Positions 12,097 to 63,043 of a stretch of 64,000 nt of DNA are shown here, piece after piece. The DNA comes from Isoetes taiwanensis (taxonomy: Eukaryota; Streptophyta; Lycopodiopsida; Isoetales; Isoetaceae): assembly GCA_021234155.1 (NCBI GenBank), contig JAJEKV010000020.1, positions 10,594,346 to 10,658,345 of the forward strand, read 5' to 3'. The notes under the pieces are model-generated. The model was not told where the DNA came from and did no database searches. It saw only the letters and a program-made list of their open reading frames with translations. The first letter of the stretch is position 1, and each line of letters opens with the position of its first letter. A program made the position numbers and the translations under genes.

Positions 12097-12110
12097 TGGC
12101 TCGATACCAT
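12097..12110 (-). other. Primer binding site (duplicate, one base altered)
   Basis: On the minus strand it reads TGGTATCGAGCC where the intact copy at 60427-60440 reads TGGTATCAGAGCC, the complement of the initiator-Met tRNA 3' end. The change sits at a CTG site on the + strand. Confidence 0.7.
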
Positions 12111-15485: not shown

Positions 15486-15632
15486 CACCCTAACAGTTTT
15501 AGTGTTCATTTCATGAGATGGTATTGTTCAAGAGGTTTGGACCAACATCGAGAGAATTTTTGGCGAATGCTTTCAGATGCTTCAAGATGCATTTAAAGAA
15601 AAATACTACGAACATATTTTTCTTATTGGCCG

Positions 15633-38757: not shown

Positions 38758-41755
38758 TGACGAAACAGCTTGGAACAAAGACATCTCCAAGGAAATCTCC
38801 TTGCAACAAACCTGTAAAGCCCATGCCAAGGTCTCCCACTAGAACTGCCGCCCGAAAACTCAAGAGTGGGTCTTCTTTAGATCGGGAGGTCTTGCCGCCC
38901 GAGTTTGACAAGGTAAGCATCAGGCAGCTTAGGAGCAACAATTTTGATAGCATGTTTCCAGGGCTAGTGCAAATAGTGCAGGATGTTTGGGGTTCTGAAG
39001 CCCTTGCTGTTAGGGGTTATCAAGAGTGCGGGGATTAAGCCCGTTGGATGGCGATTTTTTTTCCGTAATATGAGCACGCGCTTTTTGTAGGAGGGACATT
39101 GCAAATCATCACATTCCATTGTATTTTGCCCGAGCATATGCACTTCATTACAAAGGAGTAAGCATTGATTGGGATGAGGTGAAAGCAAGTGCAAGTCTTC
39201 ATTCAAAAGGCTCTCAAAAAAGAATCCGACGGCAATTAGCTACAAATGAAAGTCTTCCAATGTTAAAGCTATTAAATGTATGCCCGGTAGAATTGGGGCA
39301 GCAGGTTGGAAATGATGAAAAGGTGGAGGGAAACAAGAGCATTAGATTCCGCCTCCATGCTTGATGAAATACGAACTTTAAAGAGAAAAGGAAAACAATG
39401 GAAATTGAACTATTGAAGCATGAGAGTGATAAGAGCTTCTTGACAAGACTTGTGCAGAGTAAAGATGCAAAAATATGTGAGCAGTTCAGCATTATGGCAG
39501 GTTTAAAAGCAAGCGGGAAGCCAACTGATGTGCAAATGGCTTTGGCATCCCATTTAGAGGAGGAGAAATCAAGTTATATTGTCGACTTAGATGCTCGAAT
39601 GATTCCCATTGATTGTTTAAAGGCTGATTTGTAAGAATTAGAAGTCGCCATTGAAAAAATCAGCAAGGATTTGGAAGTTAATTCCAACCGTGAGAATAGA
39701 ATAAAGGAGATGACTAAGCGTTTGGAAAGATCAGACCCGATAGGCCTGCAGCCCATCTCCCATACTCGCACAAGGCGGGAGCTTCATTCTCACATATAAG
39801 CAATACTTGCAGCAGCTGCAATGATTGCCTTGACTCGACCATGGTAATATCTCCACTTTGTGGTCATACATATTGTCTATTTTGTCTTATATTCAGGGTT
39901 TCAACGACGAATACATGTGTACATGATTGTTCATGGTCCGAGGACTGCGACATTGCTTTAGGAATCCCTTCCTCCGAAGGTACATCTATTTCTATTTTGA
40001 TTACATAATTAGTTTGAGTGTACTTAGATGTAGTTAGTTTCCATCATGTACATAATCGTATTAACATTTGATTTGGCGTGGTTTTGTCTTTCTTGTAAAG
40101 AGGAAATATATTTGTTTACGTTTTACATTTACATGTGCCATGAAGTGCTTTTCCGGAATTCCTTTACGGGGTGTATTAATAGGGTGTATTGCATTGATTG
40201 TACTTTGCATTTACATGTGATCGAAATGCATATGAATTTGGTATTTGACTTTCCTTTACATTCAATCTTGAATGATGTATTTGATAGGGTGTATTGATAA
40301 AATATTTTATTCTCAAATACATTTGAATTTAGTATTTGGTTTTCCTTTACATTGTGATAGCTATGTACACTAATGTACTTCTATTTTGTCGTTACATTAT
40401 CGGTGAAATTTTGCCCATAGTAAAACCTACTTGCATGTAATTAACATTTGTTCTACATTTTGATTTGCATCGATTGTTTTTTTCTTGATTTTTGCTTCTA
40501 TCTACTCTACATCTCCCTTGATTCTGAATCAAGTGTTTACATTTCTTATTGACACCCAATTGTGTCAATGCGCACATGGGTAGTATCAAGAAAGGAAGAA
40601 GTAAACCGCGGGTAAACTAAACAATTCATATTTAGTGCACTATGCTTAAGTTCGAATATAGCAAAATTTCATGTTGTAGGTGAAAAGAAGAATGTTATTG
40701 AGAAGGGGTTGCATTTACCATTCTCGACATCCCAATTGATGAACCTGGCACAAAAAAGATGCCGATGCTATCGATGTTGGAAGTCCATCCACATCTACAT
40801 CACCTTTGAGAATTGCAACAACTCATAAGCAATCGGTCAGGATTTGGAGACAGGGGGTATGTGGAAGGTAGGGTGATTACATTCTGATTACATTAAGATT
40901 GCATCTGTTGTAGTTAGGAGTTCACTAATGTTCAATATTTTGCAGCAGGGTTGTTTTCCGAGAAAGAGATCCCACCGTGAAGGCGAAATGCTATTATTGA
41001 AGCAAACTAGTCGAAAGCCCGGAAAGTAATTCTCTCTCCTTTTCGAAGTTTCTTTTTTTTTTTTGTATTTTGAAACTTAGTTGACGTGGTTTTCGTGATA
41101 AAAATTACCTCAAGATGTTGGTGACGACATTGAAAAACAAATCCTGGCTTTCACAAGTTTTTCAAGTTGAGGAAAAGGCTTGTTCTTTGGCGGTACGTGT
41201 TTCTTTTTTTGTCTTGCTTTCAAAACATTAGAATGAAGCACTTTCTTTGTCTTCGAGACTTACACGATTCAAAGGAGCTAGATGATGTTGAAGAAGCCTT
41301 GGAGATTGCAGCCAAGGCAACGACTAAATTTATGGTCAAAGCCGATGCCAAAACAAATTGAAAAAAGAGTGCAAACCGAAAGCGGGGACATCCGCTGCAA
41401 AATCCGGTAATTGCTAGCTTACATTGACTTACTTATACTTCCGGTAGCTTATTATATTTTACTCGTTTTGCGGTCTAAACCACTTTGGAAACGAGATTGG
41501 AAGGTATCAATTTATGCTTTATTGTCATGGATCAATTGTTAATATGACACTAACATTGACTTACTTATACTTTAGTAGCTTATTATATTCTACTCGCTTT
41601 GCAGGTCTAAACCATCGAAACAGATTGAAGGTATCAATTTATGCTTTATTGTCATGGATCAATTGTTAGTATGACACTAACATCTTGGATCTGACAACAG
41701 AAATGATGACAAGGATAAACTTATGGAATTCACGCCATTCACGCCATTCAAGAAC
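38758..41755 (+). pseudogene. 5' part of a Ulp1-type gene interrupted by the chromovirus
   Basis: Coding-like + strand blocks with splice-like borders: 38758-39038 (MTKQLGTKTSPRKSPCNKPV, basic N-terminus, then LPPEFDKVSIRQL), about 39090-39364 (FARAYALHYKGVSIDWDEVK), 39398-39630 continuing after one stop to 39800 (a charged, coiled-coil-like segment with IELLKHESDK and IEKISKDLEV), small blocks near 40680-40870, 40945-41027 and 41230-41360 (ELDDVEEALEIAAKATTKFM). The last exon opens after an AG at 41700 and stays open to the insertion at 41755, resuming at 62064. The protein is unrecognised apart from its C-terminal protease (see 62059-63043). Linking all blocks into one gene is inference; the exon spanning the insertion site is seen directly. 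Confidence 0.5.
41421..41681. repeat. 132-bp tandem duplication carrying a micro-exon
   Basis: The unit ACATTGACTTACTTATACTT ... ATTGTTARTATGACACTA occurs at 41421-41552 and 41553-41681. Each copy holds an acceptor-like GCAG or TGCG, a 27-32-bp GTCTAAACCA...GATTGAAG segment and GTATCA, i.e. a candidate micro-exon. The copies differ mainly at CG/CHG-like positions inside that segment. Confidence 0.75.
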
Positions 41756-43345
41756 TGTGACGCTCCCCACCGTACACTCCACGGAAAATCCCCCAACCAG
41801 TGTCGTCTACTAGATGGGCCCTCCATCTATCCCGCTTCTAGGGATGGCTAGAACGGTAAGGGACACACCTGAGGTGTCTCTCGAAAATCCGTCCCCCTAT
41901 GGACTCCTAATAACAAATGAAGCATATAACTAAATATCAGTACTAGCAACTAACAACAATAATAATAAGTCTACCTCAAAGGGTAGCTCAATCTATCCAT
42001 TCATAGAATCGTCAGAAGGATCAATACACCATAAAACAATAAAGCTTCTACCCAAGCTCTGACTCGTGGGGAAAAGTATATCTTCGCCAGGTCTCAAGAT
42101 AGATACTGCACGGAAGTATAAACAATGGCCGGGCTGGCTATAAGACAATGGCTAAGGGTTGACCACTCCATCCGCCCCTCCAGGCATACTTTGCAGATGG
42201 GCTAAAACGAAATATAGTATGACCAGCCACCCTGATACGCAATCTCTTGATTCACCCTAAGAGACTACTCCGTGTTTCATCTCCCCGTCCGATGAGGCAA
42301 GGTCGGTTACATCTCCCCCTTCCTAAATCGGTGATTCATGGGCTTAATTAGAGGATCATGGCGACACGCCCCCGCTCACGCCTTTAACCCCCAAAAGCAA
42401 GAACCAGGCCAAGACTGCGGGATCGAGGCGGCACCATTGATCCAGGGGGGTGACGACCCATGCCCTACGACGCCGGTTACCTAACATAGGCCTAGTGCCC
42501 CCAAGTCCCCAAAGAGCCGCTTCGGCCAGGACTATTCCTCCATCTCGTCAGCGATCCCGCTATGTGGTGCTTTCGGTCATTCCATAACTCCCCTTAGTCC
42601 TGGGCTCTATGCACAGTGTGATATAATAGGTATTATGGGTCTATCTAGAAGCATCATACATAAGGTCACGCTGGGTCTCTACCCCTTCCCAATACATGAG
42701 GAGCATAACAAGAGATCAACCATATCATATCCATAATATGTGAACAATAAGAATAAGATCTAACCTAATCACATGAATCTAACTACAGAGTTAGGGTTCG
42801 TTGATTCGGTTCATCAGTTGAAATAGTGGTTCTAGGAAGGCTCTACTAGAATACATGACTCTACTACATCTCTATAGCTGAAACTGCTTCAAAATACCTG
42901 CTCCTGACGCATTTCCTCCTGATCCTGGGGTATCCATCGATTCTTCGATGTTTGAGATTAATGCCATGAATCCAACACGTCCCACGCCGCTTGGAGTAAG
43001 CTAAACCGCGCTATCTGCTGCGCTTACGGATCTTGATTAGAACTCCGGTTGTGACAATAGCCTCAAGAGTGGGAGGAGCAAAAATGTCTTCTGGTTTAGG
43101 GTTAGGTATTTATAGGCAAATTAGGGTTAGGGTTGACACCTTGTCCAATGGGATGCGAACACGTGGCCTAACCCAATCGAGTAGTGCCAATGGATATATC
43201 CTTTCTAAGGTTAATCAAGTTACATTTTAATGTGACTTGAACTTATGTAATTGTCATACAAATCCCAAGTTATCTTGGTTTGATTTGTATAGTGACGTGG
43301 CCCCAAAATATACGATACATACCGATATTTTTTGGGAACGCTACA
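41756..43345 (-). mobile_element. 3' LTR of the H3-bearing chromovirus
   Basis: 1590 bp, starting TGTGACGCTCCCC and ending GGGAACGCTACA (intact copy ends CGTCACA). It aligns along its full length with 60442-62058. Differences are small clusters around CG, CTG and CAG sites, so LTR divergence cannot be used to date the insertion from this sequence. Confidence 0.9.
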
Positions 43346-44100: not shown

Positions 44101-44686
44101 TTATTTAATATATCACAGATTTTAACAATGGCAGACCTATATGTTCGATGTTGGCCATTTCAGAGATGACTTGGCCGTCGAATTGGTTCATAAATTCTGG
44201 GTATTGTCTTTCTAAATCTTGTTTCAATACCCAAGTTGCGTCTTCTACTGGCACGGGTGAAAGCATGCTAGGGTGTACCATCTAAAGTTCTTTTTAGGGA
44301 GTGCAAAACTACCCAGAAAAGTACCCAGCACTGGGTACTGGGAACTTGCATAAATGTCTCAATAAACAATAAGTTTGAGAGTTGATTCATTCATTTTAAT
44401 CTCTAATAGTATTGTGATCCTCTAATACTATAGATTAACATGTTACTGACCTTCAATTCAAAATTTTTGAATTGATTTTAATGTAAAGAAAAAACAGAAA
44501 GTACCAGTTTTAAAAGTACCCAGTATAGGTACTTTTGAGGGTTCCAAAAGTGGTACACCGTAGCATGCTTTCGCCCGCACGTGCTTCCATTTGACTAAGT
44601 ACTGAAGAAATTCCGATCTTCGTGTTTTCTTGAGTGCTTTGTCAAGGATAGTTTCAGGAACAATTTCAACATGCTCCTCTCTGTCA
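44100..44686 (-). pseudogene. Chromodomain end of the chromovirus pol
   Basis: This is the part of pol cut off from 51761-55103 by the LINE. On the minus strand it continues after LLEMTE with EEHVEIVPETILDKALKK, then the chromodomain (RRSEFLQYLVKWKH, MITE insertion, VEDATWVLKQDLE, YPEFMNQFDG). Chromodomains on chromovirus integrases are known to bias integration towards modified chromatin. Apart from the MITE the segment appears open. Confidence 0.8.
44254..44577. mobile_element. 324-bp MITE inside the chromodomain
   Basis: Terminal inverted repeats of 27 bp (CGGGTGAAAGCATGCTAGGG... at 44254 and its complement ending ...GCATGCTTTCGCCCG at 44577) differ at two positions. The AT-rich interior is without ORF. 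The flanking target duplication is at most 2-4 bp (CA or CACG). Removal restores the pol sequence in line with the homologous copy at 31.9 kb. The superfamily is not assigned. Confidence 0.85.
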
Positions 44687-44929
44687 TTTTTTTTTTTTTT
44701 TTTTTTGAGGGAAAGGAAGGATTATATTAATCATAACTTAAGTACATACAAAATAAGGCTCAAAGCCCATATCAGAGAAAATTAAATATAAACAAAATAA
44801 CCAATTGTCCATTGGCAACGAGAAAAGTCCGTCAAAACAGGGATCATCTTCCTGACCATATGCCGGATGGGGGAGACAGAGTTTTGGGAAACCGGTAGGG
44901 GATGTGGAAACACAGGGTAGGGGATAAGT

Positions 44930-45313
44930 TCAAGAGAGAATCCGGGATAGTGGGAAGATCGGGAAAAGAGTGTGTAGCATTAAGGGGGCATTGAAAAGCA
45001 AGGGGGCCATCCAATTAATCTCGGCCCGAGGGGGGTCAGCAGCCAAATAACTCTTCAATGGGTACACCGATAATATCCAATAACACACCAGTGCAGCCTC
45101 ACATCTGCCTTTATGGTAGTAATACATAGACCTTAAGCAAAGAACGCCTTTCGATAAAAGCGGTTGTTGGCTCCAATGAACTTGTGGAGAATGTGTGCAT
45201 TGTATGCTTCCTTCAAAGAAGAATTTAAGCCAAACGTAGCTCGACGGCGACGAGGCGCCCCGAATGGTGGGTAGGAACATCATCCCAGGGATTGATCCCT
45301 GAATACGAACCAC
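44930..45313 (-). pseudogene. LINE ORF2 C-terminal zinc-binding RT domain
   Basis: A 127-codon minus frame carries IPGMMFLPTI, FEGSIQCTHSPQVHWS, LLSKGVLCLRSMYYY and KGRCEAALVCYWI, resembling the zf-RVT domain found after reverse transcriptase in plant LINEs. The cysteine/histidine pattern is only partly kept. Confidence 0.6.
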
Positions 45314-46363
45314 ACTTGTTCAAAAAGGCTGCAATCCACAAAGGCATTCAAGTCAATCGGAGAGTCGGAATGAATAGTAAAGAAAGTAGACTTGAAGGAG
45401 CCCCAATTCAACCAATCCGTATCAAACTTCTCCAATTTAAGGGCTTTATGAGCCATAGCACATCTAATAAGTTCAAATTGGAAATTGAGCTTCATCCAAT
45501 TAAGGTCACACTTCACGTTTTGCGAGCCACATTATTCCTATGTTTCCAAACAATCCGAGGGCTAGTTGTAGGACTGTACAATTGACACTTTGGAATCGAG
45601 CTGAAAGAATTGAGAAATATCGGTTATGGAATCGAAATCGAGGATTTTCAGGCCCCATCGAGTCAACCATCTCCAAAAGTCCTCGGATCCTTTGGCAAGT
45701 GAAAATGTGTAGCATGCATTCATCATGATTGTTCTGAGCTGGCAGAGGGCACTATGGGCAGGTCTTAAAGTTTCTCTTGATCATGTTAGTGTTACTTAGG
45801 ATAGCACTTTGTGGGGATGAGCCAAGAGAACACTTTTATCTTAGGGCAAGCATAGGATTTCGGCTAGATCGAGAATTTTCTTGAAATTCTTGGAAGATAA
45901 GCCACGAGAGAGGCATGCTTTTCGCTTTTACGGGAAGGCATGCATGGTAAATCTTAGATACTTTGTAGCTCCTTTTAACCTTGAAAAACCAATTAGGGGG
46001 GAGTGACTCTCCCCTTGCCATCTTTGCCTAAGAAAGGGGAGTAGGTGAGCACCACTTTCTTATAAATCGATCTGTGGTAGCACCCCTCCAACTTTCTTCT
46101 TAATCATTTCCCAAGGAATCAATTTTCCTCATCATCAATGAGGTCTTTGACATGCAAAATATTAGCAGAGTGCCATTTTTGTAACATGTAGGGTGACAGA
46201 TAGCCATAGCAGAGTAGGAGGGAGGGGCCATCACAGGGGACCCGAATATGGAAGTATCTCTCACTGAATTGGACAATTTGTCATGAGTAAAGTTAGCGAC
46301 CACTTTCTCCCATGCTTTAAAAGATACTTCTAAGGAGAGGAGAAGTATTAGCTGCATTTGAAC

Positions 46364-48000
46364 TCATAGAAAGCGAATGGAGCTGGTGCTTAGGGAGGGA
46401 CTTCCTAAGGGTTTACTTTTATTAATCCGGGAACCTAATAAAATCCATAGCGGAGATTGGAAACCGAGAGATGGCTTTCCACACATTTTATTTAAGCACT
46501 TGGGCTTGGAGAAATAAGGATTTACATCCCAAACCCCCGACTTTTTACTATGAGTCACCGATCCCAAGCGAAAGATGTGTACCTTGCCAAATATACTCTT
46601 TAATACATTGCTCAATTTTGTTATAGAAGCCTTGTCGACAATCAAAGCGAGAAGAGAAATAGACATGGCTACTAGCAAGGACGAGTTGGCAATCAAAATC
46701 ATCCCAACCCGAGACAAAAGAACCTTTAAGGAGGATAAGCTTTTTCCTGATCCTATTAATGTCGAGGTCGCCAAGCAATCTTATGGGACATGTGAACGCA
46801 AGGGGAGGCCTAAAAAGAGTCGGTATTGGCCATTAGGAACAAATTTGATGCCATGTGTATTAAAGTTGCGGATACGAGCCATCAACTAGGATGGAACATT
46901 TGGCAAAATTCGGTGGATCCCGAGGCAAACACTAAATTTAGAGATGCATCCATAAAATTCTTCATATTGTCGTTATCATTTCACGAGCATGGTAAAGGTA
47001 TCATCGATATTGAAGAATGGAAAGGCTGTTATTGAATTCGGGGCATTTGAAGGCCATGGAGCACACCCTTATCTTGGTAAGAGAGGGACCATTTTAGTAA
47101 AATTTCAGCAGCAATTATAAAGAGGTAGGGGAGCCGGGGGGCAGCCTTGTCTCACCCCTCTTTGAATGTGGAAAAACCAAAGAGGAGTCCCATTGACAAT
47201 AACACATGAAGTGGCTTTTGGTTTAATCCCATAATGAGCTTAGTGAGGGCAGGATGAATGCCAATATGGACCATGGCTTTCTCTAAGAATTTCCAAGAAA
47301 TGATCATAGGCCCTTAGAAGTCCGGCTTGGGGAGGATACCGGTTTTGTTTGGTCAATCTATTCCAGTCTGAGCCTCATTTGCAGCTATATAGTTATCCAA
47401 AATAGATCTGGCTGGAAGAAATGCATTGACAGGCATTCACTTTTCATGGAGGTGAACCAAAATTCTACCATTATAATCTTAGCTACAAGCTTGTATAAAG
47501 TTGTAGTCAAGGAGATGGGGCGCCATTCATTGGTTTTTAGAAGGGATTCAGTCTTAGGGATGAGGAGATAACTCCAACATTGAAGGTTGGATAAATAGTG
47601 CTTTAGCTCTCAAACCCCCGAACAAATTGGATGATGTCCTCCTTCATAATAGGCCAAAATTCCATAAAGAATTCGGGTTGAAAACCATCTATACCGGACT
47701 CTTTCCATGCTTCATTTTCTTAAGAGTTTCAAAGATTTCAGGAAGTTCAGGGACTTCAGTCAATCATCATCCATCATATCATTAGGAGGACCAATGATAT
47801 CAAAAGACTTCTGGATTTTACGATCTTCTATCAATTAAGTCTTTAAAAGATTAGTGTAAAATCAAGGAAGGCCGAGGCGATTTCCTTCTCATCGTAAGAG
47901 TGGAACCTTGTTGGATTCAATTTGGGTAATGGAGTTATTAACCAACTTGTTTCTAGCAATTCTAAGAAACATTTTAGAGCTCTCATGATCCAATTGATTG
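46364..48000 (-). pseudogene. LINE reverse transcriptase remnant
   Basis: Minus-strand fragments of the plant L1 RT: the active-site region near 46990-47040 reads FFNIDDTFTMLVK (FADDTF type; the alanine before DD is replaced by isoleucine), and a later thumb/connection part at 46364-46778 has YNKIEQCIKEYIWQG and SSRFDCRQGF. Frames shift many times between 46400 and 48000. Confidence 0.65.
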
Positions 48001-48006
48001 TACATC

Positions 48007-49110
48007 TTAATTTTTACTCCTAAGGGCCATCCCTTTAACACGGTGTTCTTCAAGAGCTTTGATCTGAATTTCTAATTGTTCCTCTCTCAAATGAAGAGAG
48101 TCATCCCTAGGATTGCCTTCAAGATCAGATCTAATATTCTTGATTTGTTCCAACAGTGGGACATTATAGCTTTCCTTTTCTCGAGCAAGGTCTTTTCCCC
48201 ATTGTTTCACCCAGGTCTTTGACTTTCTTCATTTTATCATTGAAGCACTTCATGGATTGGTGTTAGCCAATCTTGGGCAGAGAGGTAGAAAGAGGTGAAC
48301 TCTTGACAAAAAGACTTCATTTGGAGCAGAGGTGTTAAACTTGAAAGGGGTGTTCTTGCTCCTAGGGCCAATTTTCAGATCTTTAGTGTCAAGGAAGTGT
48401 GGTTGGTGATCTGAGATGGTGCTAGCTATATCTCCGGTAACAATACAGTTGTCTAACCAGCTAGCGTAATTATGGATATAAAATCGTCTCGCATCGCGAA
48501 GAATCTCGATCACCCTTTCTCTTGTTGCTCGGAGAATTTTAGTGTTAGAAGATGGGACATAGATAAGGTCTTGGTTGGACATCAATTGTCCCGAATATCT
48601 TTCATTAATGGACATGTTAATTTTGTTTTACCCAAGCTTCATATCCTTATGGGGGGCATTATTGAAGTCCCGGTAACCACCCGGTTCTCAATATCTTTGT
48701 GGCCGCTCATCCATTGTTGATTTCAAGCCACATGGGCTCTCTTTCATGGGGGTCAGTTGAGGCATAAATATTAATGAAGGCAACTTGGCGGTCCTTAATT
48801 TGGAGGGTGACGGTAAAGCCATTTGGAAGAGTGATGGTGTTGATTAACTACGGTTGACAATCCTGGTTGTCCCAATCGGTGCCATCAGGCTGGGATATAC
48901 CGAGGGAAAGCCATCCCGGATCGAATCCATTCACCCATTTGGAGTCAAATTTGGGGGAGTCTATGTTCTTGAATCATAATGATATCTGCTCCTTAGAAAT
49001 CTCTCCCAAGGCAATAAACCTTCTCCTTTTAGTGGGGCCTTTGATACCCCTCAAGTTCGGGTTAAGATCTCATGAGGGTAGGAGAAAAAGAACCAGAGGA
49101 GCCAGCAATA
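48007..49110 (-). pseudogene. LINE endonuclease and linker remnant
   Basis: Minus-strand APE-type endonuclease phrases: LNPNLRGIKGPTKRRR (49030-49080), FINIYASTDPHERE (about 48740-48790), a GGYRDFN block (GGDFN type, about 48660-48690), and STISDHQPHFL (48390-48425, the SDH catalytic motif). A helical, charged linker follows at 48007-48210 (LHLREEQLEIQIKALEEH). Confidence 0.7.
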
Positions 49111-49199
49111 AGACTTAAAGACCATGAGGTGAGGCCTTGCCAGTATTATAAGTGTGAAGGTTCGGTGCTCCCGGGGACTTAGTTATGAAACCCGCCTTT

Positions 49200-51600
49200 C
49201 ATTTTCCTTTTTAAAGATCTAAGAGATGTATTGGTGATATCATGTAAGGGCGCTACTCATATCTTCCCTCTCCCAATCGGTACAATTAGATGCTGGTTGA
49301 CTCGGTCAAGGTTGTCCAAGGTGTCAAGGTTCAATTGCGAGCTTGCAGGCCATATTCAATACTCTCTTTCACCGGTTATGGTAGGTGGATTGGACAAAAT
49401 CACGGTCGGCAGAAAGGTAGGACTATCTTGTGTTGGGGATAAAGTCCTTTGTTGGTCTTGTGTTTGACTTGCTATCGGGAGTCAAGCCGTGTGCTCGCAA
49501 ACAAGGGAGTGATCACTTACCCGATTCGCTCCATCTCCTTATCTTCAATCGGCGCTTTGTCAAAAGACACTTTTCATCCACGGCTTGAGACAATCACTCA
49601 TCAGGGTCCACAAAGTGACTTTCCATACTTTTATAGAGTTCGAGGCAAAGGGGTATGGTGAGAAGGGGAGTGAGTTGACCAATGCAGAATGTGGTATGAT
49701 TGAGGGATCTACCGAGAGATCAACAAGATAGACCACGGAGGGAGGTGGGAGAGGTGGGAGAGGTGGGGGTAACCGTGTATGAGAGGTTGAAGAAAGTGAT
49801 CCCGTTCCTGGATGTGCAGATTGGTATTTGAGCCAACTTTGTATGTATCCATCCTTTCCTTGTGGTGTGAAGAGATCATTGAACTCCTCACCAAGATCAG
49901 TTGAAGAACCCCTCGTAGAATTTTGAATCTGTTACAAAAAGGAGAGGGGCGATGTCCCCTTATCGGTGAAGTTGACCGGTCTCCGCAGGCGCAGACCTGC
50001 TCAAGCAAATTGTGTTGCATATCTTCAGAGCATCATTGACCATGTGTTCCTTATCGGCCCGGTGTGTAGGTTGAGAAGAAGATGGAACTTCATCTTGTAT
50101 ACCACCATCCTCGGCTGATTATTGTGACTTTATCATATTGCACCTGTTGCGAGGTTTGTGCTATCAAAGGTTTAACCATGGTGGGGGGTTGAATGAAACA
50201 CCTTTAATGGTGACCCCTTTGTTTAAAACCTTCACAACCTTTAGCGGGAAAAAGAATTCAAATCATGGGGATTTGAGAGTCTCTTCAAGTTCCTTATTGG
50301 CTAAGGCAATCTTCTCATACAATGATTTGTCTCCTTGGGTGCCTAGCACTACCAAGTTAATGTTACCCCGCATTGCGATCGGTGCCGTGTTTCTCTGATT
50401 AGGGTAGCTTTGCTCCCGTCAGTGGTTGGGCGGGCATCGGGGAAGCACTTTCACCTCCCTCCATGCAAACGTTTCTGCGGATCGGACAAGCAGGAGGCAA
50501 CCCATTCCATCTTAAAAGCAAGGATTGGTCAGTCCCAAACGCATATCCCGGAAAGTCAATTCAAAGAAGGATAGGTTTGAGAAGATCCAATTGTATGAAT
50601 ACAGTGTAGAGGCCCTGGTCAGTGCAAGTTACATGTTGATATGAAGGAGCCAATAGGAGAAAAGATAGTTTTTAAGCATTGGGGCTCCCAAAAGAAATTT
50701 GGATTAAGATCATGCAGGTTAACATATCTTTGTGTGCATGAGAGTTGATGGCTTTAGAGGGTTAAAATGATAGGACCATTTCGAATTTAATTCTAAAGCC
50801 AAGATGAGTAAGGGTGCCCCCATCTTTAAGATGTGCTCAGCCCGACTTTGTTCAATGAGCATCTCGATCATGAAATATGGGAAACGAGTCCAATAGATGG
50901 CGCGTAGATTTGGATCGATTTAGATAAAGCACAAATTTGCTTGGACACATTCCCTAAAACAATACCTTCCTTTTTAGGCCCGACAAATGGCGGCATGCGA
51001 AAGAGAGAAATTCAAACCTTGAATGACAAAAGCTTCGGATTCAATTCCGCACCTCTGGGTGGCGGTAAGTCGGGTGGATTGTGCTTCTTCATGGTCGAGA
51101 ATGTCTTGTTTAATATCTTGTCTTCCTTAAAAGGTTGAGCTCTCGCATGAAAGTGTTGCTTGAACCGGCATTACGATTGGAGCATAGCAGTCGAGAAAGG
51201 TCTATCCCCGAAGGAAGATGGAAGAGCATTCTTTAGCGCCATCGGTTTAGCAACGAAGGTTGTGAATTCACCAAATTGAATCGGAACTATGTCTCCTTTG
51301 AAAGCAACAGTTGTTGGGCTAGAATTTCTTTACGTTCTTCAAAGATTTAAGGAGGAGAAGGTATTTAAGATGGAGCCCATCGGGGGAGATAATCCCGGGC
51401 CCGCTAGATCCGGTGGGACCATGATAACGAGAAAGATGCGAGGGAGTCTCAAAAAGCCGTGGAGAATTAAGATGATTGGAAGTGGAGAAAGGGGAAAGTT
51501 GGCAAAAGGCGGAGGGTACAAAGCGAATTATCTTGAGGAGATGAAAATGACTTCCCCGAGGGGCGATGGGACCCAAAAATCCTAGATCTAAAAGATGTAA
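49200..51600 (-). pseudogene. LINE ORF1 region, decayed
   Basis: On the minus strand coding-like fragments occur (near 50880-50780: AIYWTRFPYFMIEMLIEQ and LKMGAPLLILALELN; near 50390-50200: MRGNINLVVLGTQG) in the place expected for plant L1 ORF1 with its nucleic-acid binding domain. Stops are frequent and no zinc knuckle could be confirmed. Confidence 0.4.
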
Positions 51601-51722
51601 TGTAGATTACCTTACCGCTTACCTCGATTTACCTCGATTCTGAAGTCGATCCGCGATCGAACCCTAGTTAGGGTTAAGCATGACCATGGTAGCGCTCCAG
51701 CCTCCTTTCGATGTAGAAAAAC

Positions 51723-54700
51723 CTATCGGACAAAGCGCTCCCTTGCATATTCTGTCATTTCCAATAAAGTTGGAGTCTCCAAAATCTCTTCCGGATTTGG
51801 GGTATGCCTCTTAAGCAGACTAACGTGGAAGACTTTATGAACCTTTAGATGAGCGGGTAAGTCTAATCTGTAGGATTGATTTCCAACTCTCTCAATAATT
51901 TTAAATGGTCCTGCCCATCTTGGTGCCAATTTCTTGCAATTTCCAATTCTGAGCTTGGCTTGCTTAACTTTGATCTTTAGCCATACGCTATCTCCAACTT
52001 GAAATTCTCTCACTGTTCTATGCTTATCTGCTAAGCTCTTTTGACGGCTTCTAGCTGCTATCAAATATTCTCGAACTTCTTGCACTAGCTCTTGCATATC
52101 TTCTAGCATTTGTTGAGAGACTTCAACTTTTGACACCGGATTATGCCACGTGTCAGGTGTGAGACATTGGTATCCATAATTAATCATGAACGGGGACATC
52201 TGTGATGATTCTTGCTTGGTACTATTGTATGCAAATTCTACCAAGTATATGTAGTCCTCCCATTTCGTCTGTTTGTTCCACACGTAATGTCTCAACATAT
52301 CTTCCAAAATTCTGTTTGTTCTTTCTGTTTGACCATCTGTTTGAGGATGATAAGTTGTACTCATACAAAGCTTTGTTCCGATGGTTCCAAAGAAGTCCTT
52401 CCAAAATGCACTTATAAATTTCGGATCTCTATCCGATATTATTCCTCTAGGCATACCATGAAGTCTGAAAATTTCTTTAGTGAAGAGCAAGGCTGTATCT
52501 AGGGCAGTGTCTGTTGTTTTACATGGCAAGAAATGTGCCATCTTTGAAAGTTTATCGACTACTACCATGAGTGCGTCATGCCCCCTTGCTGTTCTTGGGA
52601 GGCCCGTGATGAAATCCATACTCACTATTTCCCACTTGGCATCTGGAACTGCCAATGGCTCTAGGGCTCCAGGAATGCGAAGTTGTTTGGCCTTGGTTTG
52701 TTGACATAATTGACATTGCCGAATGTAATTGGCAATGTCCTTCTTCATACCTGGCCAGAAGTAACTACTTCTTATTTTAAAGTAAGTTTTCATAAAGCCT
52801 GCATGACCTGCGATTGGGCCATTGTGAGTATCATTGAGAATCAATTTTCTCACTCCTGATGCTTCTGGGACACACAATTTGTCCTTATGATAAAGAAGCT
52901 TGCCTTCCTTCTTATAATTCTTAAAAAGTTCCCTTTCCTTGTTTGTCCTTGCATCCTTGCAAAGGCTTGCCCAAACCTGTTGGAACTCCACACTAGAGGG
53001 TATTGCCTCCTCAATTTTCCTGCCGAATTCACTTGACAAAGTTGATATGGCATTGCAGTGTGTTCTTGTGACTATTGGTCTGCGAGAGAGAGCATCAGCA
53101 ACTACATTCAATTTGCCGGGCTTATAGACTATATCAAAGTCATATTCTTCTAAAAACTCCATCCACCTTCTTTGTCTCAAATTTAGAAGTGGTTGTGTGA
53201 ATATGTATTGCAAACTCTGATGATCTGTGTCTAATTGGAACTTCTTTCCTAACAAGTAATGTCTCCAAATGCGTAGTGCCCTCACTACTGCCAATAGTTC
53301 TTGATCATGAGTCGGATATCGTTGTTCTGCTTCATTCATCTTCTTTGAATCATATGCAACTACCCTTCCTTCCTGCATAAGTACCCCGCCTGTGGCAATC
53401 ATGCTTGCATCAGTTGCTACAAGTTTATCTTTTTCTGGGTCAGGTAAGGTTAGAACTGGAGCTATTGTCAAGGCTTCTTTGAGCTTATCAAAAGAAACTT
53501 GTACTTCTTGCATCCAATTGTCCATCCAGTTCTTTACCTTCTGTTTCTTTGTGAGGTCTGTCAAAGGAGTTGCCCACTTAGCAAAGTCCTTTACAAATTT
53601 TCTGTAGTATCCTGCAAGACCCAGGAAACTTCTTACTTCAGGGACGTTTCTTGGTGCTGGCCAATCTATGATGGCTTCTATTTTTGCTGGATCTGTTGCA
53701 ATGCCTTCTGCTGATACAATATGCCCCAAGTAATCAACTTTGGGGGTGGCAAAGTGACACTTGGAAAATTTGGCAAATAGCTTATGCCTTCTTAGCTTCT
53801 GTAATGCTTTTCTCAGGTGGTGATCATGTTCTTCGATTGACTTACTATAAATGAGGATGTCGTCGAAGAATACTATTACAAAATCATCCAAGAACTCTCT
53901 GAAAATTTCATTCATCAACCTCATGAACGTTGCTGGTGCATTTGATAGGCCAAAGGGCATAACTGTAAATTCATAATGACCATAGCGTGTTCTGAAAGCT
54001 GTTTTATGAACATCTTCTTTTTTTATTCTTATTTGGTGGTACCCTGACCTTAAGTCTATTTTGGAGAATATCTTTGCCCCTTGAAGTTGATCCATTAGAT
54101 CATCTGCCCTTGGTAATGCGTATTTATTCTTTACCGTTTGTTTATTTAGTTGTCGGTAATCTATACACATTCTTAGACTTCCATCTTTCTTCTTCACGAA
54201 GAGAATAGGTGCCCCAAAGGGTGATACACTTGGTCTTATAAAACCAATTTCCAACAACTCCTTCAACTGTTTCTTGAGCTCTCCCAGTTCCGGTGTGCTC
54301 ATCCTGTAGGGAGCCTTGCTAGTAGGCTTAGCATCTGGTGCTAGAGTAACCTCACATTCCACACCTCTATAGGGTGGTAGCTCTCGGATATCATCCGAAA
54401 AAACATCATAGAATTCTCTTATGATTTTAGCAATAGGCTTAGGCAATTTTTCTATGCTTTCCTCCTGTGTTATTTTCTCACTATCAGGTTGAATTGCTTC
54501 TAGCCTAAGGATATATTCGATCTCCTTCTTTAAATTGCATTTATTCAACTGGCTTAAAGTTATACACTGCATTACTGAAGGAATTTCCTTACCTCTGACC
54601 ACTATTCGTTTGCCATCTGGTGCGGTGATTGCTATTTCTTTATTGTCGCAGTCAATGATTGCCTTAGCTGGTTTGAGGAATTCCATTCCAACTATCAAGT

Positions 54701-55330
54701 CATATTTGCCAATATCCATTACCTCAGCTCCCATGGTGAACTTAATTCCGGTCAATCCGACGTCGAAATTAACTCTTCTTCCCTTTGTATGTCGAATTGC
54801 CCCATTTGCCATGCTGACTGGTCTGGGTTTAGATTTCAGGGTCTTTGACTTCAATAATGCTGCCAGTCTAGGAGATGCAAAATTGTGTGAACTACCTGTG
54901 TCTATTAGAATTACATATGGTTTATCATCTATTATAGCATCAGTTGAGATGACCGTGGACTGACTTGCAACATTATCAGTCTCAATAGCTGCACAAATCT
55001 TACACTCACCATCTATGTAATCTTGGGCTTCCTCCTGATCATCATCTTCATCTTGTTCAGTAGGTGATTCCCATCCATCTAGCTCTGCTAAGGTTGCCTG
55101 CATGACGAAAGGACATGTATGTGTTCTGTGGCCCAGTTGGAAACATTTGAAACAGAGTTGTTTCTTGATGCATTCATCCCCCTTTTCTCTTGGAATACTG
55201 TCTAGGAAGCTTTTGATTGACCTGCCAGATGAAGACCCTTGAGCTGCCTGATTTCTATATGGTCCTTTCCTTTCATTCTTCCCTTGAAACTGTTGGTTAG
55301 CAGGTTGATTTCCCTGCTGCCTTGGAGTGT
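51723..55330 (-). CDS. Chromovirus Gag C-terminus - Pol polyprotein (PR, RT, RNase H, IN)
   Basis: One long minus frame. The zinc knuckle [14 protein letters not shown] (CX2CX4HX4C, about 55110-55155) is in frame with pol and upstream of the first Met at 55103. Residues counted from that Met: protease DTG 68-70; RT with [10 protein letters not shown] 311-320 and FFDDILIYS 412-420; RNase H from VATDAS 562; integrase zinc finger H760, H767, C797, C800; catalytic D830, D891, E927 (DD35E); a GPF-type module near 1050-1090. It runs on to LLEMTE, where the LINE interrupts it; the last residues (YARERFVR) come from the LINE. All catalytic residues are present. Gag upstream of about 55330 is frameshifted. 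The chromodomain lies at 44100-44686. Confidence 0.93.
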
Positions 55331-55379
55331 ATGGAGCTATTGACTTGTCCTTTGAATAGTTGCTTTTTTTGGCCCGTGT

Positions 55380-56318
55380 GTTTGTGGAGTTTCTTCCAAA
55401 CTTAAGGCTTTATCCTCGGCTTTCCCCTAACCGTTTTTGGGTTTATGGCCCGCACAAGTCTCTTGATGTTGGGGTTTAGTCCTTCAATGTAACCATCTAC
55501 GGCTTGCCTTTCTGTTATTGTTGGCACATTTAATCGTAGCCTCATGAACTCTTCTGTATATTTGGCTACGGTTAAGTTTCTTTGATCCAACCTATAAAAT
55601 TGTTGAATCTGCCTGCTTGTATGTGATCGAGGTACATAGTGCTTGCGAAATGCTTTACTGAAAGTTTTGAACTTACAATTGTTTCTTTTCAGTCTATTAG
55701 ATTTTGCATATCCCTTCCACCATATTCGGCTGGACCATTCAAATTTGTTTACGTTGCTACCTTTCCTATGTCCTTATCCTTCATCCCATAGGAGTTGCCA
55801 AATTCTTCCATCTCATCAAGCCATGCTTCTGCTTCCATGCCGGATCTGTCCTTTCCAGAGAACTGCCCCAGTTTCCTTGTTTTCCAGACATTGCTCATAG
55901 CAATATCTATTTTCTTCTGGTAATCCTCCGCTCGACGTACCGTTCCTCCTCTTCGATGTCTGTTCCTATCATTAGAACTACCGGACTTCGGTCGAAAGTC
56001 TATTGTCACTAGTCGCACTGATGTGGTGTTGTCTGCACTTGAGCTTGAAGGAGTTACACTTCTCCTATGTCTTTTCTTTCTCTTTTTCTCCTTTGGAGCC
56101 TCCGGTGGTGGATTCTGCCCTTGGTGAACTTGTTGATCAACTCCTGGGACTTGTTGTGGTAGGGGTGGACACTCCTGGTTTTGCATCAATGGTGTTGCCC
56201 AGTTGACTATTCGTGTCATTTGATTTCTCATGCGCACTAATCGTCGGTTTATAGCTTCGGATGACATGTCATCCTCGACTGCTTCATCATTGTCATGGCC
56301 AAATAAGTTCCTTGGCAA
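55380..56318 (-). pseudogene. Chromovirus gag, N-terminal and core part
   Basis: The start MPRNLFGHDNDEAVEDD at 56318 is followed by a basic linker (KEKKRKKRHRRS) and the capsid-like core KKIDIAMSNVWKTRKLGQFS, EAEAWLDEMEEFGNSY. After about 55750 the frame shifts and continues with DQRNLTVAKYTEEFMRL and IKRLVRAINPKTV (55402-55590). Gag forms the intracellular retrotransposon particle. One or two frameshifts separate it from the zinc knuckle-pol frame; they may be real or sequence errors. The 56320-56619 spacer to the next ORF is AT-rich and holds nothing recognisable. Confidence 0.8.
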
Positions 56319-56619
56319 CCAGTTTCGTTGTCGGTTTTGAAATTCTTGTTCCTGAGGTGGTAAGCCGAATGTTCCAGCTGCAAGATTTTATCATATACAT
56401 TGTTTATGCAATATTCCTTGGTGTTATGATATTGTTATCTTACTTCAAATAAACCATAAAGATTTTTAAAATAGAAGATGATTTATATACTCATAAGATA
56501 ACTTTTCTATTCAAAACACGAGTACATAAAATTATAATATTATCTTTAAAAAGTAAATACTTGGCATAATTTTAAGAAAAGCTAAACATGAAATTGCTAA
56601 TCTATTCCTTGGAGCTGGA

Positions 56620-58137: not shown

Positions 58138-58439
58138 TAGAGCAAGGTAGATGTAAAAGACGGTTTGATAAAATAGCAAAAGGCCTGAAAAATCGCCTAA
58201 AGGGGTAGGAGCTATCTTTGAGAGGAAAAAAAATAGAAAATGACCCTCCTTTTATAGAGGTTAGGGTTTCTAGTTTTTCGTGCCAATCATAATTGTTTAG
58301 AAAAATCTAAGTTTCATGAGCTAGAACTTACCAATCTAAGAGATATGAAATGCTAACATAGTTAGAATAAGGCAGAAAACATACTAATTTATTTTATTTC
58401 AGTTAATTTGGGCATCTTTTTGATCAACTCGGGCTATTT

Positions 58440-58502
58440 CGGTTACACCGCGCGAAAGGGGTTTCTAAGCCCCTTAGAAGGCGGTTTGGCGCGGTGTGAC
58501 CG
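58440..58502. other. Hairpin element 1
   Basis: The outer arms CGGTTACACCGCGC and GCGCGGTGTGACCG pair over 14 bp with one T/G mismatch. An inner stem TTCTAA/TTAGAA has a GCCCC loop. It lies in the spacer between the H3-like ORF and the 505-aa ORF. Confidence 0.85.
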
Positions 58503-58641
58503 AATTTGGGTCAACTTTATTTCCATAATGACGATTTTTATAATAAAACATACTAACTTGTGTTTCTTTCCTATTTTTAGCCAACCTAGCATGTTTATTT
58601 ATAAAAAAATTAACTTATTTGACTCTGAATTTATCCTGTTT

Positions 58642-58704
58642 CGGTTACACCGCGCGAAAGGGGTTTCTGAGCCCCTCAGAAGGCGGTTTGGCGCGGTGTG
58701 ACCG
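58642..58704. other. Hairpin element 2
   Basis: The same 63-bp structure lies 202 bp from the first, with identical outer arms and inner stem TTCTGA/TCAGAA. The A-T pair of copy 1 is a G-C pair here, a compensatory change. A degraded third copy is at about 10323-10385 in the duplicated block. Confidence 0.85.
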
Positions 58705-58830
58705 AATTTTGACTTTTTGGCGCCGTTGACTTTATTAACTCCGATATTTATTAATTTTAAAAAGTAGTACAACCTCTATATAACACCCTGGAGTCAAAAT
58801 TTACAAAATTTTTAGACAATTATATGCTAT

Positions 58831-59904
58831 TTAAAACTTTGCCCCTCTAATTCTTCTTGCCAAATGAATATCTTTAGGCATTACGGTAACCCTCTTGGCA
58901 TGAATAGCACAGAGGTTACCTTCTTCAAATAATTGAACTAGCTCTGCCTCAAAAGCTTCTTGCAAAGCACGAACCATGAAAGGTGTAACCCGATAATCTG
59001 TCTTGAATTCCTGCAACACCTCCCTTAGCAACCGCTCGAAGGGTGCCTTGCGTATAAGGAGATTTGTGCACTGTTGAAAGTGCCGAATCTCCCTAAACGC
59101 ACGGGAGCGCTTCGAGTTTGGGCCGTGGTGTTTCCTCTTGGGCTCTCTGGGGTGTGGTGGGGGTGGCTTCGGCTGATTTTTCTTGGGTCTGCCCCCCTTC
59201 ACCGTCCTTGGAAAATTCTGTTTGCAGTACCATTCATTGTATAGGTACCATCGGCGAAAGTAAATTTTATATGCCGCCTTCTTTCTTTCAAATTGGGCGT
59301 CATGACTTAATTTGAACGCCCTTTCGCCCGGCTTTTGTTTCTTTTTGCTCTTTTGTGCCTTGGGCCATGTTGGGTATGGTGGTGGGGCATTAGGGTCGGA
59401 GGGTTCGGCCTCATCTCCTGATCTTTCGACCACGGGGTCTTCCTCCTCTTCTTCTTCAACGTCCTCCTCTTGTTCCTCTATTGGTTCTTCATCCCTAGGG
59501 GGTTCTTGGATATTAATTGTCCCCCTAGGCCTATCCTGCCTCCTCTTCGTCCTCCTCTCTTGCCTTCTCAATTCCTCCTCCCTTTCTTTTCTCTTTCTTT
59601 CCCTTCTTTCTGAGGCCCATTCGGATACTTTTTCCTTGCCTTTCTTGCTTATGGGTCTCATACCTTTTGGCAGCTGCTTCCCACCTGTTGTGGGTCTAGT
59701 GATTGCTTCTTCTTCGGCCCGTTCTTCTTCGACCTCCTGTTCTTCACTTGATTCTTCCTCTTCTTCCTCACTTGTTTCGTTCTCCTCTTCTTCAACTACT
59801 TCCTCTTCTCGAGGGGGTGGGTGGGCAGCTGCTGCTTGAGCGGCTAAGTGAATTTGTTCTGCATAGGGGCCACAAACTCTGGCAGTGGATTTGGTTCTGG
59901 CCAT
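58831..59904 (-). CDS. Retrotransposon-encoded histone H3 variant (357 aa, long acidic/basic insert)
   Basis: Histone H3 pairs with H4 in the nucleosome core. Residues 1-9 are MARTKSTAR, the H3 tail start with Q5 changed to S; K4 is kept, K9 is V. An insert follows: acidic (33-67), an H3-tail-like [10 protein letters not shown] (72-81), strongly basic (88-128), acidic (138-166), Pro/Lys-rich (173-193), an aromatic basic helix (205-230) and an AT-hook-like [10 protein letters not shown] (237-246). Residues 269-357 are a full H3 fold with canonical loop lengths: [59 protein letters not shown]. The histidine and aspartate of the H3-H3 interface are kept. IRHFQ and TNLLI recall CENH3 but the short loop 1 is H3-like. 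Single exon, first ORF after the leader, same strand as gag-pol. A host-gene capture is inferred. Confidence 0.92.
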
Positions 59905-60426: not shown

Positions 60427-60440
60427 TGGCTCTGATACCA
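60427..60440 (-). other. Primer binding site for initiator-Met tRNA
   Basis: The minus strand reads TGGTATCAGAGCCA one base inside the 5' LTR, the standard complement of the initiator-Met tRNA 3' end used by plant chromoviruses and many Copia elements. Confidence 0.93.
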
Positions 60441-60441
60441 T

Positions 60442-62058
60442 TGTGACGCTCCCCGCACAATATACGGTAACCACCGTACACTCCACGGAAAATCCCCCAA
60501 CCAGTGTCGTCTACTGGATGGGCCCTCCATCTATCCCGTTCTAGGGATGGCTAGAACGGTAAGGGACACGGAGGTGTCTCGTAAATCCGTCCCCTATGGA
60601 CTCCTAATAACAGCGGAAGCATATAACTAAATGTCAGTACTAGCAACCAACAACAATAATAATAAGTCTACCTCGAAGGGTAGCTCAATCTATCCATCCA
60701 TAGAATCGTCAGAAGGATCAATACACCATAAAACAATAAAGCTTCTACCCAAGCTCTGACTCGTGGGGAAAAGTATACTGACGGCTAGGTCTCAAGATAG
60801 ATACAGACGGAAGTATAAACAATGGCGGGGCTGGCTATAAGACAATGGCTAAGGGTTGACCACTCCATCCGCCCCTCCTGTGCATACTTTGCAGATGGGC
60901 TAAAACGAGCTATAGTATGACTGTAGCCCCCGGATACGCAATCTCTTGGATTCACCCTAAGAGACTACTCCAGGTTTCATCTCCCTGGTCCGATGAGGCA
61001 AGGTCGGGTTACATCTCCCCTTCCCGGAAATCAGTGATTCGATGGGCGACTAGAGGATCGTGGCGACACACGTCCGTTCACGTCTTTAACCCCCCAAAAG
61101 CAAAGAACCAGGCTGGCACCTGCAGCTCTTCAGGATCAGGGCGGCACCATTGATCCAGGAGGTGACGAACCCATGCCTGGCCCACGCGAAGTGACCGACC
61201 ATAGGCCTAGTGCGCCCCAAGTCCCCAGTAGCCGCGCTCAGCAGGGACTATTCCTCCATCTTGTCACTGATCCCGTTATGTGGTGCTCAGTCATTCCATA
61301 ACTCCCTTAGTCCGGTGGGCTCTATGCACAGGCCGCATATAATAGGTATTATGGGTCTATCTAGAAGCATCATACATAAGACTGCTAGGTCTCTACCCCC
61401 CCTTCCCAATACATGAGGAGCATAACAAGAGATCAACCATATCATATCCATAACATATGAACAATAAGAATAAGATCTAACCTAATCACATGAATCTAAC
61501 TACAGAGTTAGGGTTCGTTGATTCGGTTCATCAGTTGAAATAGTGGTTCTAGGAAGGCTCTACTAGAATACATGACTCTACTACATCTCTATAGCTGAAA
61601 CTGCTTCAAAATATCTGCTCCTGATGCATTTCCTCCTGATCCTGGGGTATCCATCGATTCTTCGATGTTTGAGATTATTGCTACTGAATCCAACACGTCC
61701 ACGCTGCTTGGGTCGCTAAACCGCTATGTCTGCAGCTTTCCGATCTTGATTCTCGAACTCCCATGACAATAGCCTCAAGAGTGGGAGGAGCAAAAATGTG
61801 TTCTGGTTTAGGGTTAGGTATTTATAGGCAAATTAGGGTTAGGGTTGACACCTTGTCCAATGGGATGCGAACACGTGGCCAGTTACCCCAATCAGGTAGT
61901 GCCACGTGGATATATCCTTTCCTAAGGTTAATCAAGTTACATTTTAATGTGACTTGAACTTATGTAATTGTCATACAAATCTAAGTGATACTGGATTTGT
62001 ATGGTGACGTGGCCCAAAATATACGTATACATACCGTATATTTTAGGGGAACGTCACA
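60442..62058 (-). mobile_element. 5' LTR of the H3-bearing chromovirus
   Basis: 1617 bp, TGTGACGCTCCCC ... GGGGAACGTCACA on the + strand, followed by the TSD AGAAC (62059-62063). The promoter is expected in its minus-strand U3 (right part); a TATTTATAGG near 61816-61826 could be read only on the + strand, so I make no TATA call. Confidence 0.92.
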
Positions 62059-63043
62059 AGAACTGTCCGCCGGCTAAAATGAAAGTGGTTGCATCTAACA
62101 TAGCAATTTTATGTGCAACTAACTCTAAAATGAGTAGCCGCTTAGTGGATCTTTATGGCAGGTAATAACCTGGTTGTAACCGAGCTGTATTTGTTGCTAT
62201 TCCTTGTCTCTAATGTTAATCTTAATCTAATCCAGGTGCTTGTATGAGACATTGCCTTTCGAGTGGAAGAGCAAAATCTTTTTTATCCCCCCATACAACT
62301 ATATAAGGTTTAGAGAAGCTACCAAAGAAAGAAAAGAAAGGGTGAATCAAATTTGAGGATCACCGAATGTCATTGAAATAGTGAAATCGTGGGATGAAGG
62401 GGATTGTGGTAGCTAAATGCCATCATATCCTTGCACCTATCCTGAGAATGAACATTTTGTCTTGGTCGTTTTACGCCGCACCATCTCGATTCCAAGATCC
62501 TACCCCGCACTGAATTCACGCCTTGAATCCTCTTATGGTGTTATCGACGAACCAGAAAGCAATCAAAGGGTATGTAATACTTTTAAGTTGTTGCTTTGCT
62601 TTTCTTCGCTAATTGGCCCCAAGCTAAATTTCTCGGATATGTAGGCTGATACAAAAAATGTTAACCACATCGATCGGTCAAGTATCTAGAGGCGTCGATT
62701 TCATGAAGAGAAATAATGTTAATCGGATTCAGCAAGTAGAGGTGCCACAGCAGCCCGATTTAACATCATGTGGGTTGTATGTGATGGGATTTATGCACAA
62801 ATATGTTGAAGCTCTTGTCTCTGGTAGAGATATGGAAGTAAGTTGTATGCCTTCCCTTGTATGTACTGCATCTCATGTTCCTTTAAATATTTCTAACCTT
62901 ATTTATGGATGTCACAGATTACATCTAAATGGTTCTCTCATGAATACGCCCTGTCACGACGACAATTTCTAATAGATGCTTTGGTCATGCATTGTGATGC
63001 CAATCCGAAAGAACGTATCAGCCAGCAGTCCTCTGATTTCTGA
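62059..63043 (+). pseudogene. 3' part of a Ulp1-type (C48) protease gene
   Basis: Ulp1-family cysteine proteases process SUMO-like modifiers; plant transposons (some MULEs and CACTAs) also carry them. Visible exons: the second half of the interrupted exon (62064-62161, donor GTAATA), an exon ending 62569 (donor GTATGT) with the His motif ENEHFVLVVL, an exon 62645-62837 (donor GTAAGT) with VPQQPDLTSCGLYVMGFM, which contains the catalytic-Cys motif (Q...CG), and a final exon 62918-63043 (after GTCACAG) beginning ITSKWFSHEYALSRR and ending at TGA. One frame slip lies inside exon 62645-62837. The gene is inactivated by the chromovirus in its exon. Whether it was a host gene or part of a larger transposon is open. 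Confidence 0.7.

Follow-up and report, generated by a model that had tools for sequence, protein, structure and literature searches.

Histone H3 is the presumed target read by chromovirus chromodomains. Transposon-borne H3 genes are known from fungi, where a hAT transposon of Pyrenophora tritici-repentis carries an H3-like gene, H3L, represented by 26 copies and by ESTs (PMC3538342), and where the H3 copies captured by a hAT in Pseudocercospora fijiensis are inactivated by RIP, the accessible portion of that report describing no selected function for them (PMC6710886). Among plant Ty3 elements, those of Phalaenopsis carry an ORF for an AlkB m6A demethylase, and a screen of 121 angiosperm genomes, reaching 5 kb to each side of the reverse transcriptase (RT), yielded 15 extra domains, with no histone among those named in its text (PMC9289625). 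Single histones have also been described in viruses, namely bracovirus H4, xenomavirus H3 and prasinovirus H3 (PMC9145170).

The window analysed here, a 64,000-nucleotide stretch of the Isoetes taiwanensis genome, contains a Ty3 LTR retrotransposon with an H3-like ORF. Like the fungal H3L, this gene has insertions in the amino tail, a changed fold and a neighbouring ORF of unknown function; H3L, however, belongs to a fungal DNA transposon with very similar copies, for which its authors consider drift possible (PMC3538342), whereas the window H3, which has a 268-aa tail, comes from a divergent lineage showing signs of purifying selection. With the hAT of Pseudocercospora and its relatives the window element shares intron-less capture of H3 and amplification by a transposon (PMC6710886). 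It is itself an LTR element, and no hAT domain was found in the four ORFs scanned with Pfam. The AlkB elements of Phalaenopsis are likewise large plant Ty3 elements with an extra host-type ORF and a proposed anti-surveillance role, but they encode an enzyme rather than a histone and belong to the Tat/Ogre lineage, not to the chromoviruses; Ogre/Tat elements feature a tRNA-Arg primer binding site (PBS) and a second RNase H (PMC9289625). The PBS of the window element is of the initiator-Met type, and no second RNase H was detected among the Pfam matches of its pol. Measured from the RT, its H3 fold begins at 4.6 kb and its ATG is at 5.7 kb, on the edge of the 5-kb range of the angiosperm screen (PMC9289625). 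The viral cases share the presence of one core histone, with an extended tail in bracovirus, that is incorporated, or presumed to be incorporated, into host nucleosomes, but they concern DNA viruses, and the main text of the review never mentions a retrotransposon (PMC9145170). Chromoviruses of non-seed plants have a Ty3 pol with a chromodomain and, in some, a tRNA-Met PBS, and no H3 ORF is described in the available parts of the two reports on them (PMC2864245, PMC3350952). A search of the literature, limited for the most part to open-licence papers, found no H3 in an LTR retrotransposon. The original prediction knew of no described retrotransposon with an H3 ORF, and within that search this stands for LTR retrotransposons, with a precedent in fungal hAT DNA transposons; what appears to be new here is an H3 in an LTR retrotransposon, transposon-borne H3 being already known (PMC3538342, PMC6710886).

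The window element (Table 1) presents LTRs, a 5-bp target-site duplication, a PBS, a polypurine tract, gag and a pol in the order protease, RT, RNase H and integrase, which identify it as a Ty3 LTR retrotransposon. The PBS was called against what we take to be the complement of initiator tRNA-Met. The zinc-knuckle-like motif of gag has a Pfam E-value of just 0.059. A LINE-like insert sits in the C-terminus of pol, flanked by a 10-bp duplication (AAATGACAGA), and the two chromodomain pieces are parted by a small insert at approximately 44.28-44.6 kb, as judged by eye. The window copy can be considered dead, since its gag is frame-broken and its chromodomain is severed from pol by the LINE-like insert. 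A related element in the window retains an intact chromodomain at the C-terminus of its integrase (31790-32197, Pfam E 7.8e-10), and the 6 kb of window sequence upstream of its pol contained no convincing H3 or ORF2 match. Together, the two broken chromodomain pieces and the intact one of the related element support the assignment of the H3-bearing element to the chromoviruses. The flank of the element contains a Ulp1-like peptidase fragment (Peptidase_C48, E 5.3e-5; 62628-62969, plus strand), perhaps derived from another transposon.

Table 1. Features of the H3-bearing element and of related sequences in the window.
Feature	Position	Strand	Remarks
Target-site duplication AGAAC	62059..62063	.	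Outside 5' LTR
5' LTR	60442..62058	-	
Primer binding site (PBS)	60427..60440	-	14-nt match, presumed initiator tRNA-Met complement
H3-like ORF, 357 aa	58831..59904	-	Intact; between LTR/PBS and gag
Histone fold	58834..59100	-	Residues 269-357 of H3 ORF
74-bp hairpin-forming repeat, copy 2	58636..58709	-	z -6.02
74-bp hairpin-forming repeat, copy 1	58434..58507	-	z -5.48
ORF2, 519 aa	56620..58179	-	From TTG, Met at residue 15; between H3 ORF and gag
gag	55101..56387	-	Broken into three frame pieces; Ty3_capsid match at 55405-55773 (E 3.2e-14)
pol	51723..55103	-	Protease, RT, RNase H, integrase (Pfam)
LINE-like insert, about 7 kb	44690..51740	-	Approximate ends; poly-A end; RT trace E 0.012
Chromodomain piece 1	44461..44718	-	Pfam Chromo E 3.6e-4, below cut-off; separated from pol by insert
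Chromodomain piece 2	44108..44281	-	Pfam E 0.18, below cut-off
Polypurine tract AAGGGAGAA	43346..43354	-	Adjoins 3' LTR
3' LTR	41756..43345	-	
Target-site duplication AGAAC	41751..41755	.	Outside 3' LTR
Related chromovirus pol	31790-35416	-	55-86% identical by piece; chromodomain intact
Duplicate of 58538-63998	10219..15629	-	91% identity; H3 ORF (indel-broken), 5' LTR and flank

The original prediction of an intact 357-codon H3 ORF, lying in a Ty3 element bounded by LTRs and a target-site duplication, was borne out in both respects. The ORF is uninterrupted, and the longest ATG ORF in 500 base shuffles of 58180-60441 reached 165 aa (357 aa in 0/500). It matched the Pfam Histone family (PF00125) with E=1.3e-30 over residues 241-353, and its best PDB matches were canonical H3 (E=5e-33), all matches shown being H3. 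The predicted placement between LTR/PBS and gag also held, but it had passed over the 519-aa ORF2, which likewise precedes gag. From its ARTK start the protein runs through two acidic blocks, basic stretches and a W/Y-rich linker with PPPP to an H3 fold that is identical to plant H3.1 at 60/89 positions. The conserved part of the tail comprises W219, Y222, N223 and a proline run directly ahead of the fold. Residues 1-30 resemble the start of the H3 tail, with an equally good resemblance in 1 of 2000 shuffles; the resemblance of residues 31-268 is weak (87/2000 shuffles as good), and that of residues 60-100, a segment chosen afterwards, was equalled in 30/2000. The conserved H3 tail with its ARKS motif was not found in the ORF, where ARKS occurs 0 times. 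In the window copy alone, 11 of 13 presumed DNA-contact residues and 8 of 9 presumed H3-H3 residues are kept, with no excess over overall conservation in either case (P 0.13 and 0.14), and special conservation of the DNA contacts in this copy by itself was rejected.

Codon usage of the H3 fold correlated with that of ORF2 at r 0.46 and with that of pol at r 0.54. AlphaFold models built from single sequences were of poor quality (mean pLDDT 55 and 32), and searches of viral contigs with H3 and ORF2 confirmed no relative. Eleven ATGs lie between the PBS and the H3 start in the window copy, so that the ORF is unlikely to be translated directly from a full-length transcript and would probably depend on splicing, on reinitiation or on a different promoter. 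Between the H3 ORF and ORF2 lie two palindromic 74-bp repeats that are 96% identical to each other and could possibly represent an RNA signal or a small foldback element; an Rfam search over 55000-62100 returned no matches. ORF2, which accompanies the H3 ORF in other copies, matched no Pfam family above the cut-off, and its best PDB match had E 0.28.

The second copy in the window, at 10219-15629, shares its flank with 58538-63998, indicating the same insertion, duplicated or assembled twice, and ruling it out as an independent insertion. Over 58538-63300 the two copies differ in 403 of 1710 columns near CG and in 144 of 3115 away from it, with 189 transitions, 183 transversions, 175 gap columns and identical runs of up to 283 bp. 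Given this clustering near CG, the similar numbers of transitions and transversions and the gaps, the differences were read as consensus error rather than decay, and the broken H3 of the 10219 copy was rejected as biology. The differences between the two LTRs follow the same pattern (181/676 near CG, 53/967 away), so they cannot date the insertion, and LTR divergence was discarded as a measure of its age. The CG-centred differences suggest consensus errors linked to methylation in a noisy long-read assembly, and estimates of decay or dating from this error-rich genome assembly need care.

Searches of the 1.66 Gb assembly containing the window scored at least 114 H3-ORF matches (weakest E 2e-101) out of 28,476 first-look candidates, together with at least 84 ORF2 and at least 42 pol matches. 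Over the matched stretch, 77 of the 114 listed H3 matches are free of stops. Among the matches listed, identity to the window protein falls into two classes for H3 (78-100% and 59-71%) and for ORF2 (87-100% and 59-63%, with one match at 75%). ORF2 follows on the same strand, 489-1309 bp downstream, in at least 30 of the 114 listed H3 matches, the window's included, and H3 or ORF2 lies upstream within 20 kb for at least 9 of 41 pol rows among the matches listed, one of the two rows of a split match having been left out.

Two sets of loci were fetched, the first comprising hits 2-21 of the 114 listed (20 loci) and the second 18 of the 19 places in a one-in-five sample of hits 22-114. In the first set, an LTR end lies upstream of H3 in 16 of 20 copies, the PBS 12-mer in 15 and the leader in 18; downstream, ORF2 was found in 18, gag in 15 and pol in 14. 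In the second set the PBS is upstream in 13 of 18 copies, and in 10 of these, all of subfamily 2, it stands 566-580 nt ahead of the MARTK start. No two of the 12 copies with readable 5' flanks, window included, share a flank. In one of them (L026), the upstream LTR start (sense coordinate 338) is preceded by a likeness of the element's own polypurine tract; this copy may belong to a tandem or recombined arrangement, and 11 of the 12 were therefore counted as independent insertions. As read from the assembly, many copies at independent sites show H3 linked to LTR, PBS, ORF2, gag and pol. The prediction would have been undone by a single locus with this linkage; with at least 114 scored matches, and an LTR end upstream in most of the first set, a single captured locus was rejected.

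The H3 proteins form two subfamilies, approximately 62% identical to each other, and a third family is represented by one copy (L016:1179-2429, minus strand), in which an LTR-like end and a PBS are followed by a 417-aa ORF. Both subfamilies and the third-family copy start with MARTK or MASTK and end in an H3 fold of canonical length. The third-family ORF starts MARTKQTTRKP, and its fold, 57% identical to canonical H3, has P in place of R63 (LLIPRAPF) and contains CTVHAKR. Stops occur inside the best H3 match in 11 of the 38 fetched copies, and 16 of the 39 copies (window plus fetched) have a full-length, stop-free H3.

The fold remained free of stops to an intact end in 28 of the 39 copies, and 23 of these entered the analysis of the 89-codon fold, with L022 and L028 (altered ends) and L039, L040 and L043 (only a 65-aa ORF found) left aside. 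With copies chosen in order of their similarity to the window protein and, within subfamilies, also filtered for stops, both of which lower dN/dS, and in an error-rich assembly that blurs it, the fold gave dN 0.019, dS 0.339 and dN/dS 0.057 in subfamily 1 (12 sequences, 66 pairs) and dN 0.048, dS 0.648 and dN/dS 0.075 in subfamily 2 (11 sequences, 55 pairs, 9 with undefined dS). Between subfamilies, fold dN was 0.123 and dS was undefined through saturation in 121 of 132 pairs. In the 16 full-length stop-free copies, dN/dS was 0.18 (6 sequences) and 0.12 (10) for the tail and 0.04 and 0.08, respectively, for the fold. Against the window copy, broken copies included, it was 0.091 for the fold (20 copies), 0.170 for ORF2 (18), 0.227 for pol (14) and 0.247 for the tail (20). 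The fold is the most constrained of these four coding parts.

In a neutral simulation at the dS of subfamily 1, amino-acid identity fell to 50% and 89% of folds acquired a stop, against observed mean identities of 96% and 92%. For bias alone to mimic fold values of 0.06-0.09, ranking and filtering would have to depress the ratio more than tenfold; in these copies the tails gave 0.12-0.25. Purifying selection thus seems to preserve the H3 that a lineage of LTR retrotransposons carries, and to act most strongly on the fold. The comparison of dN/dS across copies that had been proposed as a check therefore favours the prediction of a chromovirus encoding its own H3 variant, as do the many LTR-linked copies and the at least 11 independent insertions.

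Alignment of 17 element H3 proteins revealed that K4 is kept in all of them, as is each of R69, R72, R83, H113, K115, R116, D123 and L126, which we take to be sites of DNA contact or of the H3-H3 interface. K56 is lost in 16 of 17, with Q or M instead, and positions 87-90, presumably the chaperone-recognition site of H3, differ from the host SAVL in all 17. K9 is replaced by V in the six full-length subfamily 1 proteins (6/6), but the third family and 9 of 10 subfamily 2 proteins keep it; loss of K9 therefore does not characterise the clade and was rejected as the key to the design.

Host canonical H3 genes gave 15 matches, 96-98% identical to canonical plant H3, and the eight that were read encode one identical protein. 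After a clear gap in score, at least 135 further H3-like folds were found (71-86% identical to canonical H3), with a stop in 6 of 135 and open frames of up to 567 aa. None of the first 70 of these lies within 12 kb of the 114 listed matches of the window type, and one is beside an ORF2 match. They may represent further element families nearer to the captured gene. At G000:C1078:20994065-20996379 (minus strand) the order is reversed: an ORF2 match is followed, 447 bp downstream, by an H3-like fold in the place expected for gag.

We consider it probable (about 0.7) that the H3 gene was acquired from a host long ago by a clade of Ty3 chromoviruses, in which it remains the first gene, ahead of a second private gene, ORF2, and of gag and pol, and that the encoded protein forms an H3-variant nucleosome serving the element. 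Points that weigh against this explanation are the 11 ATGs ahead of the H3 start, the stops in 11 of the 38 fetched copies, the poor structural models, the absence of excess conservation at the presumed contacts of the window copy, the downward bias of the dN/dS values and the modest share of listed pol rows (at least 9 of 41) with H3 or ORF2 upstream. Judging from the conserved residues, the element H3 would pair with host H4 and enter nucleosomes as an H3 variant, having retained the ARTK end together with the arginines that contact DNA and the H3-H3 interface, and lost K56 and the presumed chaperone-recognition residues 87-90. The long acidic and basic stretches that replace the tail could serve as a built-in chaperone and, together with the changed chaperone residues, might let the protein bypass host deposition routes, a more loosely drawn step. 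The most likely use would be loading onto the element's new DNA or provirus, yielding chromatin that host silencing handles poorly. The uses suggested by the original prediction, namely depositing a private H3, packaging cDNA or competing with silencing marks, are likewise conjectural. Possibly the tail could also be read by the chromodomain of the element's own integrase, so that reader and substrate would travel together. A complete private chromatin system, with its own H3 on its own DNA, the integrase chromodomain as reader and ORF2 as a loading or partner factor, is a tentative and rather doubtful extension.

The protein might alternatively act in the virion or in cDNA packaging, as a nucleocapsid-like or nuclear-import protein that exploits the fold and the basic stretches outside the nucleosome. 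The long basic and acidic blocks of the tail, the position of the ORF ahead of gag and the departure from SAVL at the presumed chaperone site would suit such a role, but both subfamilies preserve the presumed H3-H3 and nucleosomal DNA contacts, the ARTK amino end is retained and gag has a zinc-knuckle-like motif of its own, and we regard this explanation as unlikely. An origin from centromeric H3 (CENH3), with targeting to centromeres, is suggested by the likeness of EIRHFQ..TNLLI to Arabidopsis CENH3, by P at position 63 in the third family, as in two plant CENH3 sequences, and by an eight-sequence FastTree phylogeny that placed the window fold beside plant CENH3 (support 0.77). Against it, the window fold is identical to canonical H3 at 60/89 positions and to two plant CENH3 at 45/89 and 50/88, the extended loop 1 of CENH3 is absent from the aligned folds, whose loop has the canonical length, and the PDB matches shown are H3. 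In addition, a 30-sequence tree of the fold separated subfamilies 1 and 2 from the third family as well as from host H3 and CENH3 (support 98.1/99, against 53.1/76 for the placement of the third family). On identities, loop and the larger tree, a CENH3 origin was rejected as very improbable.

Capture of a host H3 could also have been followed by amplification of a mere passenger with no role in the life cycle (transduplication). Transposons do capture host genes, H3 included (PMC3538342, PMC6710886), and almost a third of the fetched copies (11/38) have stops in their H3 match; yet purifying selection is stronger on the fold than on pol at dS of 0.34-0.65 within subfamilies and saturation between them, and the ORF is kept in two subfamilies and present in the third-family copy, leaving this reading improbable. 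That the ORFs are a family of host H3-variant genes lying beside insertions, or a product of misassembly, is hardly credible: the two window copies do diverge at 58538, between the H3 ORF and ORF2, but the arrangement LTR-PBS-leader-H3-ORF2-gag-pol recurs, whole or in part, in most of the 20 copies of the first set and at no fewer than 11 independent sites, the spacing from PBS to ATG is 566-580 nt in the ten subfamily 2 copies measured, and the host H3 genes are separate.

The apparent retention of a working H3 gene by selection in these elements suggests that they build or mark chromatin for themselves. An element that makes H3 as well as a chromodomain would turn the conflict between host and transposon into a contest over the nucleosome itself, and, if the private chromatin system were real, it could mark and protect its own chromatin, and re-target it, without depending on the H3 marks of the host. 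The finding also carries a warning, in that H3-like ORFs of mobile elements can outnumber others in such a genome. As a naturally occurring H3 variant that seems to be under selection and has a rebuilt tail, the element H3 would offer a direct way to ask if mobile elements can make chromatin that resists silencing or is self-addressed.
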